From: a virus
IMG/VR virus record: IMGVR_UViG_3300042301_000914
Span: 1-27,449 of that record
Reading direction: 5' to 3' (one strand)
Length of the DNA: 27,449 nucleotides
Below the pieces are notes generated by a model that saw nothing but the letters and a program-made list of their open reading frames with translations, was not told the DNA's origin and made no database searches. Made by a program: the position numbers and the translations under genes. Positions within the stretch are counted from its first letter, which is position 1, and the number at the start of each line of letters is the position of its first letter. Below, piece by piece: positions 5,882-25,203 of this stretch.

Positions 5882-6517
5882 ATGCCACTACACGAAGCCT
5901 CAATCCCACCGCTCAAATGTCTCGTTCGACGTGAGTTTATGACGGGTAATGATGAGCACAAAGGTCAATACGAGAAGGGGGTTGCAGTCTCAGTTCGTTC
6001 AATCCCAGGCTCTTGTGCCTTGTTTCAGGTGCTTTTGGAGAACGGTGCTCTACGGGATAAGCTGCCGATTCACGCTTTGCATGACTACGAGCATGAGCAC
6101 GAACATCCTTTTCATCATCTCCAGTTGTGGAACAGCTTCTCAGCGAACTTCTCGATTGTGGAACTTAACTTCCTTTCCGGCCTGCGGGTATCGGTGAAGA
6201 TGAAGGATGGTAAATGGGCGGATGGAATCTACCTGTGGACGATGCAATGGGGGCCAGATTATACTAACGGAGCCGACATCTCTCTGGCGATTCATCCTGA
6301 AGAGCATAAAAGCGGGCACTTTATCTGCCTTGATAACGGTGAGTTTGCGATTCAGCCTAATAACCGTCTCCGCTGGCATGAGCCTAGCCATGTGACTAAG
6401 CCCTTTCCTGAACGTCCTGAATACGTTGTGAATCAGGATGAGTGGAACTGTGAAGCTTTCGATAAGTGGACTACAGAGGACTCTAATGCTTGGCACTACG
6501 AGACTAAGGCTTGTTGA
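5882..6517 (+). CDS. Conserved phage protein of unknown function (LQNNRLRW type)
   Basis: A 211-residue protein. I recognise the general pattern of a phage protein widespread in podo- and siphoviruses: ALFQVLLENGALRDKLPIHA, then HHLQLWNSFSANFSIVEL, a short charged block (VKMKDGKWADGIYLWTMQW), and HPEEHKSGHFICLDNGEFAI ending in QPNNRLRW. Such proteins are usually uncharacterised. The domain is all-beta/mixed with conserved Trp, His and Asn residues but has no familiar catalytic motif. ATG 5882 lies in an A/T-rich context (CACTTAAAATG) without SD. The 3' end overlaps a convergent short minus-strand frame (6504-6656) by 14 bases. Confidence 0.75.
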   Translation: MPLHEASIPPLKCLVRREFMTGNDEHKGQYEKGVAVSVRSIPGSCALFQVLLENGALRDKLPIHALHDYEHEHEHPFHHLQLWNSFSANFSIVELNFLSGLRVSVKMKDGKWADGIYLWTMQWGPDYTNGADISLAIHPEEHKSGHFICLDNGEFAIQPNNRLRWHEPSHVTKPFPERPEYVVNQDEWNCEAFDKWTTEDSNAWHYETKAC

Positions 6518-7328: not shown

Positions 7329-7811
7329 ATGAATACAGAATCAACTACCGCCGGTACTCTGTTAAGTCCACCGCCTTGTTCGGAATCTTCCGTTCACTTC
7401 TCTAGCGCGTCCGATGACTGGCCTACTCCGCAAGACTTCTTCGACCGGATGAACTCCCTGCATGGCCCGTTGGAACTCGACGTGTGCGCCTCTCCGACGA
7501 ATGCTAAATGCCCGCGCTACTACACACGCGAGGATGATGGGCTGACGCAACCTTGGGAAGGCAAGTGCTGGATGAATCCGCCGTATGGGCGGACAATCGG
7601 CCAGTGGATGAAAAAGGCATACGAGGAAAGCCAACGCGGTGCGCTGGTGGTATGCCTCGTCCCAGCGCGGACTGATACGGCATGGTGGCACGACTACGCG
7701 ACGAAAGGGCAAGTGGCCTTCATCCGTGGACGGCTCAAATTCGGAGGGCATGTGAACTCGGCACCATTCCCCAGCGCGACCGTTGTATTTATGCCGAACA
7801 GATCAGAGTAA
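7329..7811 (+). CDS. dam: Phage DNA N6-adenine methyltransferase (Dam-type)
   Basis: A 160-residue enzyme of the phage 'DNA N-6-adenine-methyltransferase' family (PF05869 type), which transfers a methyl group from S-adenosylmethionine to adenine in DNA. Diagnostic blocks are DDWPTPQDFFDRM (29-41), LELDVCASPTNAKCPRYYT (48-66), the catalytic CWMNPPYGR (80-88, D/N-PP-Y motif with Asn as usual in this family), VPARTDTAWWHDY (111-123), and IRGRLKFGG with APFPSATVVF (132-154). The length is normal for the family. A role in protecting phage DNA from host restriction is inferred. The gene is GC-richer than its neighbours (about 57% in a counted 60-base sample against about 45% elsewhere), with many GCG, CGC and CCG codons, which suggests recent transfer. 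Recognition sequence cannot be read here. Confidence 0.9.
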   Translation: MNTESTTAGTLLSPPPCSESSVHFSSASDDWPTPQDFFDRMNSLHGPLELDVCASPTNAKCPRYYTREDDGLTQPWEGKCWMNPPYGRTIGQWMKKAYEESQRGALVVCLVPARTDTAWWHDYATKGQVAFIRGRLKFGGHVNSAPFPSATVVFMPNRSE

Positions 7812-13353: not shown

Positions 13354-14346
13354 ATGCCCGCTCTATTTGAACGCACTCAGGTCGGTAAGCGCGAAGACCT
13401 CGCCGATTACATCACACTCGTCGATGCCAAGGACACTCCCGTGACCTCGATGATCCCTAAAGGTAACAAACCAGGTAACACCTTGCTCCAATGGCAGGCT
13501 GACAATATGCCTACTCCATCTACCGCTGGTTCTGTTGACGGTGTTGACGTTACCTCATACGAAAACCTTAACTCTGGTCGCGCAATCCTGACTAACTATA
13601 TTCAGGTCTTCCAACGTGCAATCCGTGTCTCTCCTCTTTCGGTGGATGTTTCGATTGTTGCTGGTCTTCGTGATGAGCTTGCCGGAATGGTCGCTAAAGG
13701 TATCAAAACCCTTAAGCGCGACATGGAAGCTACTGTTTGCAGTGACAACGCCGCTCAGGTTGATGCAATCGTTAGCGATGTAGCAGTTCCATATAAAACC
13801 AAAGCTCTTGGCGTTTGGATTGCCAATGCTGCTGGCACTGTCGCACCAATCCCAACGGCATACTTGACCCCAACCACTAGCATTAACACCACTGCCACAG
13901 CTTCCTTCGCTGAAACTGATGCACAAGGCGTTCTGACTAGCATTTACAATCAGACCGGACAGATGAAAACCTATGACACTGTTGTAGGCCCAACCCTGAA
14001 ACGTGCTTTCAGTAACCTGCTCTACACTGCGACTGCTTCCGGCACGAATGCCTATGCAAGCATCCGCACTCTCCAGCGGGACGCCTTCAGCGATACGATC
14101 AGCTCTAGCGTTGATCTTTTTGAAGGTGACTTCGGTTCCCTCCGCCTGCATCCAACTCTGTTCAATCCTAATGCTTTCCGTGGTTATGTCCTTGATATGG
14201 ACCTCCTGGAGTTGCGTTATACTAACCTCCCACAGGTGACAGAGCTTCCTGATGCTGGTGGCGGCCCCGCACGGCTCATAAAAGCCGTGGCCGGACTGGT
14301 CTGCAAAAGTCCTCTAGGACTAGGAAAATTTGCTGCTACTGAATAA
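13354..14346 (+). CDS. Major capsid protein, SU10-like HK97-fold
   Basis: A 330-residue protein. The N-terminal region (GKREDLADYITLVDAKDTPV, then TSMIPKGNKPGNTLLQW) and YENLNSGRAILTNYIQVFQR match the SU10-like major capsid family (DUF5309/PF17236), which adopts the HK97 fold. The C-terminal part (RLHPTLFNPNAFRGYVLDMD, then KAVAGLVCKSPLG) is also typical. It follows the scaffold-like gene. The start is in an A/T-rich SD-less context (AAAATATTATG). Two hairpins sit in the last 80 bases of the coding sequence (14270-14321). High expression is expected. Confidence 0.9.
   Translation: MPALFERTQVGKREDLADYITLVDAKDTPVTSMIPKGNKPGNTLLQWQADNMPTPSTAGSVDGVDVTSYENLNSGRAILTNYIQVFQRAIRVSPLSVDVSIVAGLRDELAGMVAKGIKTLKRDMEATVCSDNAAQVDAIVSDVAVPYKTKALGVWIANAAGTVAPIPTAYLTPTTSINTTATASFAETDAQGVLTSIYNQTGQMKTYDTVVGPTLKRAFSNLLYTATASGTNAYASIRTLQRDAFSDTISSSVDLFEGDFGSLRLHPTLFNPNAFRGYVLDMDLLELRYTNLPQVTELPDAGGGPARLIKAVAGLVCKSPLGLGKFAATE
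14270..14321 (+). other. Two hairpins at the 3' end of the capsid gene
   Basis: CACGGCT (14270-14276) pairs with AGCCGTG (14283-14289) around a CATAAA loop, in a locally GC-rich stretch. AGTCCT (14308-14313) pairs with AGGACT (14316-14321). They lie inside the coding frame, about 25 bases before the stop. They may protect the 3' end of the capsid message or reduce read-through; no T-run follows. Visible in sequence, role inferred. Confidence 0.5.
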
Positions 14347-14380
14347 TAGCAAATCCTAGACCAAGCATCGCGTAACACAT

Positions 14381-14483
14381 CCTCAGCCATTACCTATGAT
14401 CGAACAAATCCCCGAAGAACTTCACGGCGCTATGCTTAAAGAGTTCAAGACAGGATGGAACTTTCAGAAGGTAATGGCTGAGG
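14381..14483 (+). promoter_or_regulatory. Perfect 15-bp inverted repeat flanking a start codon
   Basis: CCTCAGCCATTACCT (14381-14395) is the exact reverse complement of AGGTAATGGCTGAGG (14469-14483). The left arm ends one base before ATG 14396; the right arm is inside the new gene (codons 25-30). In RNA this makes a 15-bp stem with a 73-base loop that starts at the start codon. It is far too long a match for chance. Likely a translational control or RNase III-processing site, setting the ratio between capsid and neck genes (inference). Confidence 0.65.
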
Positions 14484-14755
14484 CTCAAACGCAAGCAGTA
14501 GGCAAGGTTAACCAAATCCGAGCCAAGTCGATTGACGGCATTGGCCAACTACAAATGCGAGTCAATGCAGACTCGTTTCATTACTGGGGACAGCGTTTAG
14601 GCTATGACTGCTGGAAGGATGCAGCATTTCGTAAGCGTTACATGGAGAAGAATCCCTACTGTAAAGTGAACAGCGGTGGAACAAAGGAAATTCATGTCGG
14701 TTACACTGGTTCACCCTCGACTCGTAACGTAAAATACCGTAAAGTCTTCGCGTGA
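14396..14755 (+). CDS. Phage structural or assembly protein of unknown function (119 aa)
   Basis: A 119-residue protein right after the capsid gene and before the neck gene. It has an N-terminal helix (IPEELHGAMLKEFKTGWNFQ) and a central aromatic segment (SFHYWGQRLGYDCWKDAAFR, then KRYMEKNPYC). The stop overlaps the next start in GTGA. No family is recognised. The pattern of small head-tail genes at this position suggests a neck or completion protein. The start codon sits in the loop of a 15-bp RNA stem. Confidence 0.7.
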   Translation: MIEQIPEELHGAMLKEFKTGWNFQKVMAEAQTQAVGKVNQIRAKSIDGIGQLQMRVNADSFHYWGQRLGYDCWKDAAFRKRYMEKNPYCKVNSGGTKEIHVGYTGSPSTRNVKYRKVFA

Positions 14756-15788: not shown

Positions 15789-15935
15789 ATGATTGCAATT
15801 ACCCTTTCGGTTAACATCAAGCCAGTTGACGGCTTCTCTGGTGAACCACCAGAGCCAGCTTTCTTGCTGTTGGCTGATGGGGCTAGCTTCTTCCTGCTTG
15901 CTGATGGAACTTCAAAACTTTTGCTTAACGACTAA
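15789..15935 (+). CDS. Very small repeat protein (48 aa)
   Basis: ATG 15789 to TAA 15933-15935, 48 residues: MIAITLSVNIKPVDGFSGEP, then PEPAFLLLADGASFFLLADG and TSKLLLND. The repeat LLLADGAS/FLLADGTS is a direct internal duplication. It fills the gap between the 15516 gene and the fibre gene at 15938, whose ATG follows the stop by two bases. Similar short LLLADG-type proteins accompany virion genes in some phages (recalled). A hydrophobic-plus-Asp/Gly repeat would suit a beta-stacked peptide. Confidence 0.65.
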   Translation: MIAITLSVNIKPVDGFSGEPPEPAFLLLADGASFFLLADGTSKLLLND

Positions 15936-15937
15936 TT

Positions 15938-17107
15938 ATGCCAGACTCGACACTCGCCAACTTAACAGCAGCTACTGCTGCAACTGGTGGATTGTTTTAC
16001 GGAACTCAATCTGGAGTCGATAAGAAGTTCACTTCAACCGCTGCTGGAGCTGCTCTAATCGAAGCTGCTGACGTAGCTGCACAGCAGTCTCTACTCTCAG
16101 TCCTTCCTCTTTCTGGTGGCACTCTCACAGGCACGTTGACAGGCACAACCTTTGTGGGTGCTTTAACAGGAACAGCAAGCGGAAACCTTGTCGCAGGTGG
16201 AGCACTCGGAACGCCTTCTAGCGGCACGTTAACTAACTGCACCAACATTCCAGCAGCTAACCTGACTGGAACGATTGACACAGCTAGACTGCCTGCAACG
16301 ATTACAGGTCTAACCAGTGTCACAAGCACGACATTTGTTGGCGCATTGACTGGCACAGCATCGGGCAATCTAGTTGCTGGCGGAGCTTTAGGCACACCAT
16401 CAAGCGGAACGCTGACAAGCTGTACAGGGCTTCCATTAAGCACTGGCGTTACAGGTGACTTACCTCTTGCTAATCTTGCACAGTCTTCAGCGGCATCGAA
16501 ACTGCTTGGACGAGGATCAGAATCAGGTGCAGGCGATTTTCAAGAGATCACGATTGGCTCTGGACTTAGCATGTCAGGCACAACTCTAAGTGCCAGCGGT
16601 GGCGGTGGTGGTGGATCATCTAACGTGTGGATTCCGGCTTCTGCGTGGATACCAAAAACAACGGCAGGTTGCGGTGTTGATTCCGTTGAAACGACGACAA
16701 ACGACCAGAATTTTGACCAGCTTCTTTTTGATGCCGGAACTGATGAATTTGCCGACGCTCTAGTCATCTTACCGAACAATTACAACAATGGCTCAATCAC
16801 GGCTCGGTTTTATTGGACTGCCAGCAGTGGCAGTGGCGATGTCATCTGGGCCATTCAAGGACGCGCATTTGCAAACGACGACGCTCTTGATACCGCAGCC
16901 GGAACAGCGCAGACGGTGACTGACACGCTGATTGCTGCAAATGACATGCACGTTAGCTCGGCAACGTCAGCCTGCACTATTGGGGGAACTCCTGCGGCCA
17001 ATACACCAGTGCAATTAACCATCTACCGCGATGCCAACGCTGGCGGCGATACGCTTGGAGCAGACGCTCGTTTGCTTGGCGTTGAAATCCTTTACACCAC
17101 GGCATAA
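15938..17107 (+). CDS. Tail fibre protein A with codon-scrambled repeats
   Basis: A 389-residue fibre. The N-terminal domain (about 1-55; MPDSTLANLTAATAATGGLF, then YGTQSGVDKKFTSTAAGAAL) is shared with the fibre gene at 18202 and is probably the virion anchor. Residues 70-99 and 131-160 are two copies of a 30-residue Gly/Thr/Ala repeat (starts TTFVGALTGTASGNLVAGGA), typical of phage fibre stalks. A poly-Gly linker (ASGGGGGGSS, about 221-231) joins a C-terminal beta-sandwich (SNVWIPASAWIPKTTAGCGV onward) likely to bind receptor. The start context is TAATTATG, no SD. A lectin-like gene follows at once. Role: host recognition. Confidence 0.8.
   Translation: MPDSTLANLTAATAATGGLFYGTQSGVDKKFTSTAAGAALIEAADVAAQQSLLSVLPLSGGTLTGTLTGTTFVGALTGTASGNLVAGGALGTPSSGTLTNCTNIPAANLTGTIDTARLPATITGLTSVTSTTFVGALTGTASGNLVAGGALGTPSSGTLTSCTGLPLSTGVTGDLPLANLAQSSAASKLLGRGSESGAGDFQEITIGSGLSMSGTTLSASGGGGGGSSNVWIPASAWIPKTTAGCGVDSVETTTNDQNFDQLLFDAGTDEFADALVILPNNYNNGSITARFYWTASSGSGDVIWAIQGRAFANDDALDTAAGTAQTVTDTLIAANDMHVSSATSACTIGGTPAANTPVQLTIYRDANAGGDTLGADARLLGVEILYTTA
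16145..16417. repeat. Two 30-codon repeats with identical protein but different codons
   Basis: Codons at 16145-16234 and 16328-16417 encode 30 identical residues, but only 6 of 30 codons are the same; all 24 others differ synonymously. Repeats of this quality should share DNA sequence if the duplication were recent. The pattern may prevent recombination between copies, or reflect a very old duplication under strong protein-level selection. Seen directly in the sequence; the cause is inference. Confidence 0.85.
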
Positions 17108-17785: not shown

Positions 17786-18198
17786 CATATCTTACTTATA
17801 ATCTTCAGCTTAGAAAAGAATCCGACGCAAATGTCATTTCAAATTTATTGCGTAAGGGTTGGAAAGAAGCCCCTCCGCCAAGTTACGACATCAATACTCA
17901 ATTTATTGAATGGGTAAATGGCGATTGGGTTGTGAAGCCGATTCAGTTGTCATCTGCGGTGGTTTCTATGCGAAGTTTCCGTGAGGCGTGTGGACGTGAA
18001 TTGATGATCCAGATCAACGCCTTTGTTGCCAGCATCGAAGACCTTAATGAACGCTTTAAAGCGCAGACTGACCTAGAGTTTGCAACTACTGTATCAAGAG
18101 CACATCCTCGCGTTGCTCAAGTCGCTGCTGCTCTCAACAAAACTGACGCTGAGATTGATCAGGTATTTATCAACGCACAGCAACTAGACGCCTCCTAA
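17782..18198 (+). CDS. Fibre-associated protein, possible assembly chaperone
   Basis: A 138-residue protein starting at ATG 17782 overlapping the previous stop in ATGA (the upstream ATG 17776 would add two residues). The C-terminal half (VSMRSFREACGRELMIQINA, then ARVAQ-like AHPRVAQVAAALNKTDAEIDQVF) resembles the small helical proteins that follow phage fibre genes and end in a 'A-LxxTxxxIDxxFxxA' signature; I recall this from tail-fibre assembly or accessory proteins. The N-terminus contains QFIEWVNGDWVVKP, a WxxGxW-type motif. A chaperone or fibre-tip function is inferred from position. Confidence 0.6.
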   Translation: MTYLTYNLQLRKESDANVISNLLRKGWKEAPPPSYDINTQFIEWVNGDWVVKPIQLSSAVVSMRSFREACGRELMIQINAFVASIEDLNERFKAQTDLEFATTVSRAHPRVAQVAAALNKTDAEIDQVFINAQQLDAS

Positions 18199-18201
18199 AA
18201 T

Positions 18202-18897
18202 ATGCCTGACTCAACTTTAAGCAACTTAACAGCAGCAACCACTGGACTAGGTGGTTTGTTCTATGGGACTCAATCAGGCATTGACAAGAAATTCACCTCG
18301 ACGGCAGCAGGTGCAGCATTGCTTGAAGCAGCTAATGCAGCGGCTCAGAGGACAGCGATGGGGGTGCCTTCAACGACTGACCTCGACGCCAAGCTGAATC
18401 TAGCTGGTGGTGCATTGACTGGTGCAATCTCCATGCCTCTGGCTGCTAGTGAAACTCTGGCTAACGCAAGGATCAACGGAATCTGTTTTGGTGCGGATGC
18501 AGCATCTTCAACCAATACAATCTCAAGTTACAATAACAGCTTCCATTTTTATACGGGATCGAGGCTGAGTATGTTGAATACATCTCTTGAATTAGGGCTG
18601 CATCCAGACATCAAGATTGGATGGGCTGCTCATTCTGGTGCTAACGTAGGAAAAGACTTGTATGTTGGAAGAGCGTCTGCTGCTGTTCTACAGCTAGGTG
18701 AGAACGCTGCAACAACTGCCACGAATCAAACGATCAAAGCTCATAACGTCACAGCTGGCACAGGTGCAAACCTGATCCTAAGCGGTGGCACTGGCAGCGT
18801 TTCGAACGGTGTTGTGATTATCTCACGACTTCCTACTTCTAACCCTGGGCCAGGCATCCTTTGGAACAACGACGGAACACCTGCAATCGGAACCTAA
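18202..18897 (+). CDS. Tail fibre protein B sharing the anchor domain of fibre A
   Basis: A 231-residue protein. The first 40 residues align without gaps with fibre A (35 identical), but 23 of the 35 matching codons are different synonyms. After this anchor the sequence is unrelated: LNLAGGALTGAISMPLAASE, then a beta-helix-like body and the end SNGVVIISRLPTSN-x-GPGILWNNDGT. The last motif resembles the 'lwnddG' end of many phage fibre and structural tips. Start context CCTCCTAAAATATG, without SD. Two fibre types on one anchor suggest interchangeable receptor-binding units. Confidence 0.75.
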   Translation: MPDSTLSNLTAATTGLGGLFYGTQSGIDKKFTSTAAGAALLEAANAAAQRTAMGVPSTTDLDAKLNLAGGALTGAISMPLAASETLANARINGICFGADAASSTNTISSYNNSFHFYTGSRLSMLNTSLELGLHPDIKIGWAAHSGANVGKDLYVGRASAAVLQLGENAATTATNQTIKAHNVTAGTGANLILSGGTGSVSNGVVIISRLPTSNPGPGILWNNDGTPAIGT

Positions 18898-23631: not shown

Positions 23632-24400
23632 AGCACCACGACCAACTAGCTACGAGAAAATGATGACGGACAGCTTAGCCGCTCAGGGCAAGATTGCACC
23701 TAAGCTGCTACGGGCTGAACAGAGGTATCAACCTCTTTATACTGCGTTAAACATCTCTCAGTTAGGACAAGCCACTCAAGGATTGCAAGGTGTTTACAAC
23801 CAAGGATTGCCAGGTGCCATTGATTTTCAGAATCAACTCACTGAAGCCGATATGGCACAGCAGGCAAAATACCTGCCTCAATTTGTGCAGCAGTATCGAG
23901 AAGGCGCTGGCTCTGCTAACCTGCTCTCACAACTCCAAACTCAAGCCGAGGAAGGTCTAGCCGCTGGTTCTAGCTTAACACCGGAACAGCAGAGAGTTGC
24001 ACAGCAACAAGCTAGGGCTGCTTATGCTGCTAGAGGCATGGGCACAGGCAACCGTGCTATTGGTGCCGAGATCATGAGCCAGTATGGAATGGGCGAAGCT
24101 CTACAACGCCAACGTCAACAGTTCGCTGGTAATGTGGCAGGACAGCTAGAGCAATCTGGTGTCCCTCAATACTACAACACGACCTATCAACCAGTCGGTC
24201 AGACTCTTTCTGGTCTAGTCAGCGGTTCATCTGGCCTAATGGCAGGGAGACAGTTCCAGCCTGAATCGCAGATGTCTTCTGACATTTACTCACAGAACGC
24301 TCAGAATAAGTTCACCGCTGGCGCTGCTAGTGATGCTAATAGATCGTCAATGATTGGTGCAGGTGCAAGTGTTGCCGTGACTGGTGCAATCCTTATCTAA
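23615..24400 (+). CDS. Internal virion protein (glutamine-rich)
   Basis: A 261-residue protein with many Gln, Ala and Gly residues: EKMMTDSLAAQGKIAPKLLR, then QATQGLQGVYNQGLPGAIDF, then LTPEQQRVAQQQARAAYAAR and a C-terminal hydrophobic segment (SSMIGAGASVAVTGAILI). This composition and place, after the tail genes, matches podovirus internal (ejection) proteins that help pass DNA through the cell envelope. The start lies within the 3' end of the previous gene. No family is certain. Confidence 0.6.
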   Translation: MGSSAEAPRPTSYEKMMTDSLAAQGKIAPKLLRAEQRYQPLYTALNISQLGQATQGLQGVYNQGLPGAIDFQNQLTEADMAQQAKYLPQFVQQYREGAGSANLLSQLQTQAEEGLAAGSSLTPEQQRVAQQQARAAYAARGMGTGNRAIGAEIMSQYGMGEALQRQRQQFAGNVAGQLEQSGVPQYYNTTYQPVGQTLSGLVSGSSGLMAGRQFQPESQMSSDIYSQNAQNKFTAGAASDANRSSMIGAGASVAVTGAILI

Positions 24401-25203
24401 TGACTAAACTCGACAACACAAAGAAGATTATTGCCAACGGCATCAAAGCCTTTCCCAAGGGAATGGTTTGTTGGAGTGGTGGCAAGGATTCGATGGTGCT
24501 CCTTCACATCATGAAAAGCATGGGCTTAAACATGCCTATCGTCTTCTTTCGTGAACCATGGCAACCTAGGAAGTATGTCTTCGCAGATGACCTGATCAAA
24601 CGGTGGAACTTGCTGGTTTACACTTGGCACCCACAAGAGTCTGCATTCCAGCAGACAGGTGATGAGTTTGAGGTGCAAAACGTCTATCAGGTCAACTCAA
24701 CCATTCTAACGTGTCCGACGGGCATTGTGGAGCCAGTGCAAGGCTGCTCGTTTACTTGCTCTTTAGACATACTTAAAAGGCCTAAGCAGTTGATGCTTGA
24801 GGTGCCTCAGTTTGATGCCTTGTGGATAGGTCACAAAGGCTGTGATTCAGATCCAATTCTAGGTGGTGACGCTGGCACTCGTATTGAATCCAGAGTTCTC
24901 TGGAGTCAGTCGAATATGATGTTCCCTCTGCGTGATTGGACTCATGATGATATCTGGGACTACATCGAACGCTATGATGTCCCTTACGATTCAGATCGAT
25001 ACGAGAAAGCTGACGGCAAGTGGCGTGAGAAAGCAGACAAGGCTCACAATGTCGATTACGTCCATGCTTGCACACGTTGCGTGGATCGTAGAGCTAACGC
25101 TCCTAAGTTCGTGCATTGTCCCAAGCTGGACATGACGATTGAGAACATTTCAGGACAGGTGCCATGGGCATCACAGGAAAAAGCAACCTACATGAAAGAC
25201 TAA
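24400..25203 (+). CDS. PAPS-reductase-like protein (PP-loop) embedded in virion genes
   Basis: A 267-residue protein of the PAPS reductase/CysH-like superfamily with a PP-loop pyrophosphatase motif CWSGGKDSMVLLHIM (24-38, SGGKDS at 26-31). Downstream blocks are CSLDILKRPKQLM (120-132), IGHKGCDSDPILG (143-155, near the phosphosulfate/AMP contact) and FPLRDWTHDDIWDYIERYDV (175-194), which match CysH-type proteins. The CysH C-terminal ECGLH motif is missing; a C-terminal CTRC pair (Cys224, Cys227) and HCP (Cys240) suggest metal or Fe-S binding instead. The start shares a base with the previous stop. Substrate is not predictable; sulfur activation, tRNA/DNA modification or phage protein chemistry are possible. 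Confidence 0.8.
   Translation: MTKLDNTKKIIANGIKAFPKGMVCWSGGKDSMVLLHIMKSMGLNMPIVFFREPWQPRKYVFADDLIKRWNLLVYTWHPQESAFQQTGDEFEVQNVYQVNSTILTCPTGIVEPVQGCSFTCSLDILKRPKQLMLEVPQFDALWIGHKGCDSDPILGGDAGTRIESRVLWSQSNMMFPLRDWTHDDIWDYIERYDVPYDSDRYEKADGKWREKADKAHNVDYVHACTRCVDRRANAPKFVHCPKLDMTIENISGQVPWASQEKATYMKD

Follow-up and report, generated by a model that had tools for sequence, protein, structure and literature searches.

A covarying long-range RNA helix at the start codon of a post-capsid gene in uncultured tailed phages

The blocking of a phage start codon by RNA structure is of a known kind. In the leader of the MS2 maturation gene, the pairing of the ribosome site includes a long-range partner, and in the RNase III sites of phage T7 two helices are separated by an asymmetric internal loop, a general form that resembles the element described here; sites of the T7 type are intergenic and have small loops. 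The MS2 maturation gene is translated from nascent strands (PMC6071253). In phage T4, the start regions of genes e, soc, 49 and I-TevI are sequestered in long transcripts by an intramolecular helix, from which gene e escapes through late promoters that omit the 5' strand of the helix (PMC3014915). At T4 genes 25 and 38, a helix between the Shine-Dalgarno sequence and the AUG aids initiation (PMC3014915).

The window analysed here, a stretch of 27,449 nt, is positions 1 to 27,449 of the IMG/VR record IMGVR_UViG_3300042301_000914. A translated open reading frame on the plus strand (14396-14755) encodes a protein of 119 amino acids, and two arms of 15 nt, 100% complementary and 73 nt apart, flank its start. 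The left arm (CCTCAGCCATTACCT, 14381-14395, plus strand) lies in the leader and ends at position -1; the right arm (AGGTAATGGCTGAGG, 14469-14483, plus strand) spans the second base of codon 25 through the first base of codon 30, and the start codon opens the loop between them. A first-pass annotation, made from the letters alone, had described a perfect 15-bp inverted repeat with its right arm within codons 25-30, and both points are borne out by the coordinates and by 15 of 15 complementary positions. It had also placed the left arm one base before the ATG, which is wrong: the arm abuts the ATG at 14396 with zero bases between them. The gene is aptly called post-capsid, its upstream neighbour (13354-14346, plus strand) being that for the major head (capsid) protein (phrog_1328, E 8e-37). 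The proposed 'neck' label finds no support, as the 119-aa product has no family match: Pfam, PHROG and PDB all returned nothing, and tblastn against cultured phages gave zero matches. Its AlphaFold model is weak (mean pLDDT 64), and its structure matches are to uncharacterised phage proteins only. A start further downstream can be ruled out, because residues 1-24 are conserved among relatives at the protein level while their codons change synonymously. Read by eye, a separate small hairpin (TTTGCT...AGCAAA, 14332-14356) spans the capsid stop codon, a site at which several relatives have small hairpins unrelated to that of the window.

The repeat is well beyond chance expectation, as had been claimed. 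With arms no more than 150 nt apart, a single exact 15-nt inverted repeat exists in the window, compared with none in 100 dinucleotide-preserving shuffles of the whole window. Two exact 14-nt repeats were observed against 0.02 expected, both of them sub-words of the 15-nt repeat.

A graded set of relatives was drawn from IMG/VR by means of three queries: the 119-aa protein, the capsid and a profile. Around 35 contigs carry the 119-aa protein at 63-100% identity, and the stem was present in every one examined. From an alignment of 34 sequences, RNAalifold recovers the inner helix unprompted. Uncompensated changes in one arm, which the first-pass annotation had named as grounds for rejecting the stem, are not what these relatives display: 99.1% of cells are paired, 35 cells are two-sided (compensatory), and the unpaired cells are confined to a single pair close to the stem's top. 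The covariation score is 0.315 against 0.191 when shuffled, with none of 500 shuffles as high, and sliding the partner by 1-3 columns reduces pairing to 36-60%. One pair is U-A in 16 distinct sequences, A-U in 10 and C-G in 7, with zero exceptions, and a tree made with the capsid and the remainder of the 119-aa gene requires four or more changes of it, every one of them two-sided. Several stem pairs are G-U in the sense strand and hence A-C in the antisense; these wobbles fit sense RNA only, which argues that selection acts on an mRNA element and not on a DNA site. The synonymous sites of the right arm are not unusually conserved (rank 35 of 91 six-codon windows), so it is pairing rather than sequence that is kept, and right-arm synonymous changes have matching changes in the left arm. 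In all 36 of 36 sequences the inner helix comprises 13-16 bp at -22 to -29 kcal/mol and terminates at the ATG or within about 3 nt of it. Judged by sequence comparison, the inner helix exists and is under selection. A conserved sense-RNA pairing over or beside the start codon would place it among the cis-acting mRNA structures that sequester start codons, and the earlier suggestion of an RNA stem governing access to the start codon is well supported by the covariation in 34 sequences. The pairing is almost certainly genuine, and it probably acts as an RNA brake or switch on the post-capsid gene.

Folding of 14340-14500, the segment singled out in the first-pass annotation, gives -45.7 kcal/mol (z -4.1). 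Opening positions -15 to +10 of the 119-aa gene is predicted to cost 23.8 kcal/mol, the highest value among the window's 37 candidate starts, not all of which need be correct. Extending the RNA of the window in the 3' direction leaves the cost at 2-4 kcal/mol as far as +78; by +90 it has risen to 22, a jump that coincides with completion of the right arm. The same step is found in 35 of 35 clade sequences (3.8 +/- 1.1 kcal/mol at +70, 23.0 +/- 2.7 at +140) and is absent from 20 outgroup starts (11.5 versus 12.5 kcal/mol), all of these costs being equilibrium energies for each RNA length and not simulated kinetics. In the finished mRNA, the region from -15 to +10 is modelled as closed, with an opening cost of about 23 kcal/mol, and hardly any initiation would be expected.

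A short outer helix is stacked beneath the inner one; with it and the linker between the two, the stem belongs to a larger element than the first-pass annotation had described. Its 5' strand (GCGT, 14370-14373, plus strand) and its 3' strand within the 119-aa gene (ACGC, 14489-14492, plus strand) are seen in the window fold and covary in relatives, where the two strands vary in step (GCGT/ACGC, CTCGT/ACGAG, CCCGT/ACGGG, ACTGC/GCAGT). Each sequence's own pairing averages -8.9 kcal/mol against -7.2 with swapped partners, and none of 5000 permutations was as good, a statistic that ignores relatedness. Since this control is uncorrected for kinship and the register of the outer helix differs among members, we are less sure of the outer helix than of the inner. 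Between the helices on the 5' side lies a linker, AACACAT (14374-14380, plus strand), predicted unpaired in the fold, whose AACA is invariant in 34 of 34 sequences. A simple clamp could do without the outer helix and the AACA, and both may be signs of a bound factor; of the two, the invariant AACA is the best hint of such a factor or of a ribosome standby site.

Most genes in the window, including that for the 119-aa protein, are without a Shine-Dalgarno site, which rules out its absence as a peculiarity of this gene. Leaders are A-rich (39% A against 28% window-wide) and are enriched in AACA/TAAC tetramers. Scarce Shine-Dalgarno sites and A-rich leaders suggest that the openness of leaders probably matters more than usual, the phage relying on open leaders because it rarely uses Shine-Dalgarno sites. 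In Flavobacterium, which is also without Shine-Dalgarno sites, initiation is tuned by leader structure (PMC6847099).

We propose, at about even chances, that the element is a long-range RNA clamp in the sense transcript, which blocks initiation on finished mRNA and permits it for a brief window on nascent mRNA. The inner helix of 13-16 bp, the short outer helix and the unpaired AACA would together close a loop of 73 nt, with the start codon at its beginning. Because the leader would fold open until codons 25-30 have been transcribed, ribosomes would load mainly on nascent mRNA, reasoning that is modelled on the MS2 maturation gene; alternatively, ribosomes already on the gene might keep the right arm open. 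Once the nascent window had passed, the start site would shut. The likely purpose would be to keep the number of 119-aa protein copies low on a message that has to yield hundreds of capsid subunits, although this stoichiometry argument is a guess. The wider reading, that a tailed DNA phage with few Shine-Dalgarno sites uses a self-closing clamp to set the ratio of post-capsid to capsid product by folding time and not by ribosome-site strength, is put forward tentatively, as one that may well prove wrong.

Other explanations take up different parts of this evidence. The symmetry alone would suit a chance repeat or a DNA palindrome, either protein-bound or extruded as a cruciform, which we regard as hardly credible: none of 100 shuffles held such a repeat, the sequence varies while the pairing persists, and many sense-strand G-U pairs would be A-C mismatches in the antisense strand. 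The shuffles and the sense-strand covariation together rule this out. Two helices of about 19-20 bp in total, separated by an asymmetric internal loop and lying between the capsid gene and the next, could also serve RNase III-type processing or mRNA stability, the stacked helices being cut, or protecting an end, and so splitting the capsid message from the downstream one. This is unlikely, since a processing hairpin needs neither an arm in a coding region nor a helix end fixed at a start codon, a double-strand cut would strip the start codon from the message, and the loop consists of 73 nt of coding sequence.

It is somewhat unlikely that the element is a protein-controlled operator, at which the 119-aa product, the capsid protein or another phage or host protein would bind the two helices and the AACA and stabilise or open the clamp. 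The invariant, unpaired AACA would fit such binding, and T4 genes 32 and 43, under the control of proteins that attach to RNA at their own translation starts (PMC3014915), offer a precedent. However, by prediction the clamp has sufficient strength in the absence of a protein, and A/C-rich tetramers such as AACA are common in the other leaders here (16 seen versus 5.7 expected from window frequency), so that the AACA may merely serve ribosome standby. A stage switch of the T4 gene e type, in which the stem silences read-through transcripts and a promoter in or after the left arm gives rise to translated, stemless ones, matches the anatomy of the T4 e, soc, 49 and I-TevI helices (PMC3014915), yet we consider it very unlikely. 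With the left arm abutting the ATG, such a transcript would be almost leaderless; the sole sigma-70-like match places its second hexamer over the start codon and would yield a transcript without it; and the conserved leader block is found a single time in the window, whereas a shared phage promoter would recur. A promoter scan found no suitable sigma-70-like site and no repeated motif in the window, although the phage's own promoters may differ. The clamp in the sense transcript is our preferred reading.

The distribution of the element, as seen in these sequences, is that of one clade, and the data fit either gain or loss. Distant homologues (roughly 33-54%) keep the order of capsid and small gene and are without the arms; in many of them the small gene begins on the capsid stop codon or very close to it, or has a GGAG upstream. 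The starts at or near the capsid stop in these stemless homologues suggest that the clamp replaced coupling. The phages that carry the element are a group of uncultured tailed phages, and a search for the host in a genome collection yielded only capsid relatives of 38-44%, in uncultured bins. As a separate observation, in a sister clade with the same small gene a strong local hairpin lies around codons 28-38, near the location of the right arm in the window's clade. Its sequence is GCCCGGGCCGC-ACAAAA-GCGGCTCGGGC, with variants that have G-U pairs, and it is seen at L134:1501-1640 and at the equivalent places of L135-L145.

Searches for the element elsewhere returned little. At the gathering score, Rfam 15 gave zero families; of three sub-threshold matches, the best two lie on the other strand, and all three fall outside the clamp. 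Titles and abstracts of open-licence literature covering structured RNAs of phages and metagenomes, or the translational control of head-tail genes, contained no description of it, which is weak evidence of absence. A loose pattern matched three other places in six larger relatives, none of them a start-codon clamp. A looser scan of every ATG, GTG and TTG turned up other helices of 12-20 nt with G-U pairs, as expected for such a scan, and only the post-capsid clamp recurs at the same gene. Elsewhere in the window, a cluster of CACGCGT/ACGCGT repeats with long inverted repeats (1970-2187) lies inside a predicted replication initiation protein gene (1776-2519) and could represent origin iterons. 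A 151-nt direct repeat, 72% identical (15934-16084 and 18198-18348), stands at the starts of the open reading frames at 15938 and 18202, which suggests a shared N-terminal module. Possible auxiliary genes encode a protein of a PHROG labelled ferredoxin (5882-6517, phrog_3704), a Dam-type methyltransferase (7329-7811) and a PAPS-reductase-like protein (24400-25203).

Overall, our analysis describes a strongly covarying and apparently undescribed mRNA element at a late-gene start codon in one clade of uncultured tailed phages. With it, the idea that folding time limits translation in DNA phages can be put to a direct test, as can start-site control where Shine-Dalgarno sites are mostly missing. 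The element also has an arm in the leader that follows free synonymous changes inside a gene.

Set beside the known systems, the long coding loop, the in-gene arm, the two-helix design and the setting appear new. T7-type RNase III sites share the two helices, the asymmetric internal loop and a place between late genes, but here half of each helix lies within a gene and the loop is large. The split ribosome sites of T4 genes 25 and 38 share a conserved RNA structure at a late-gene start, restricted to a close clade (PMC3014915), whereas the clamp has its AUG within the loop and no upstream Shine-Dalgarno sequence, and so is not a split site. The helices of T4 e, soc, 49 and I-TevI are the nearest tailed-phage cases: there, as predicted here, a helix sequesters the start region and lowers initiation. 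They differ in that no promoter of the gene e type was found in the window, that the loop here is 73 nt of coding sequence, and that the arms covary widely. The maturation leader of MS2 is alike in that the finished RNA hides the ribosome site and the nascent RNA is open, here by equilibrium folding only, in which short RNA is open and full-length RNA closed. Its product is a minor virion protein, which we count as a further likeness, with the 119-aa protein as the putative counterpart. MS2 is an RNA phage with a Shine-Dalgarno sequence and a partner upstream in the leader, whereas the clamp belongs to a tailed DNA phage, without a Shine-Dalgarno site and with its partner downstream in the gene; the kinetic step that has been demonstrated in MS2 is, for the clamp, inferred.
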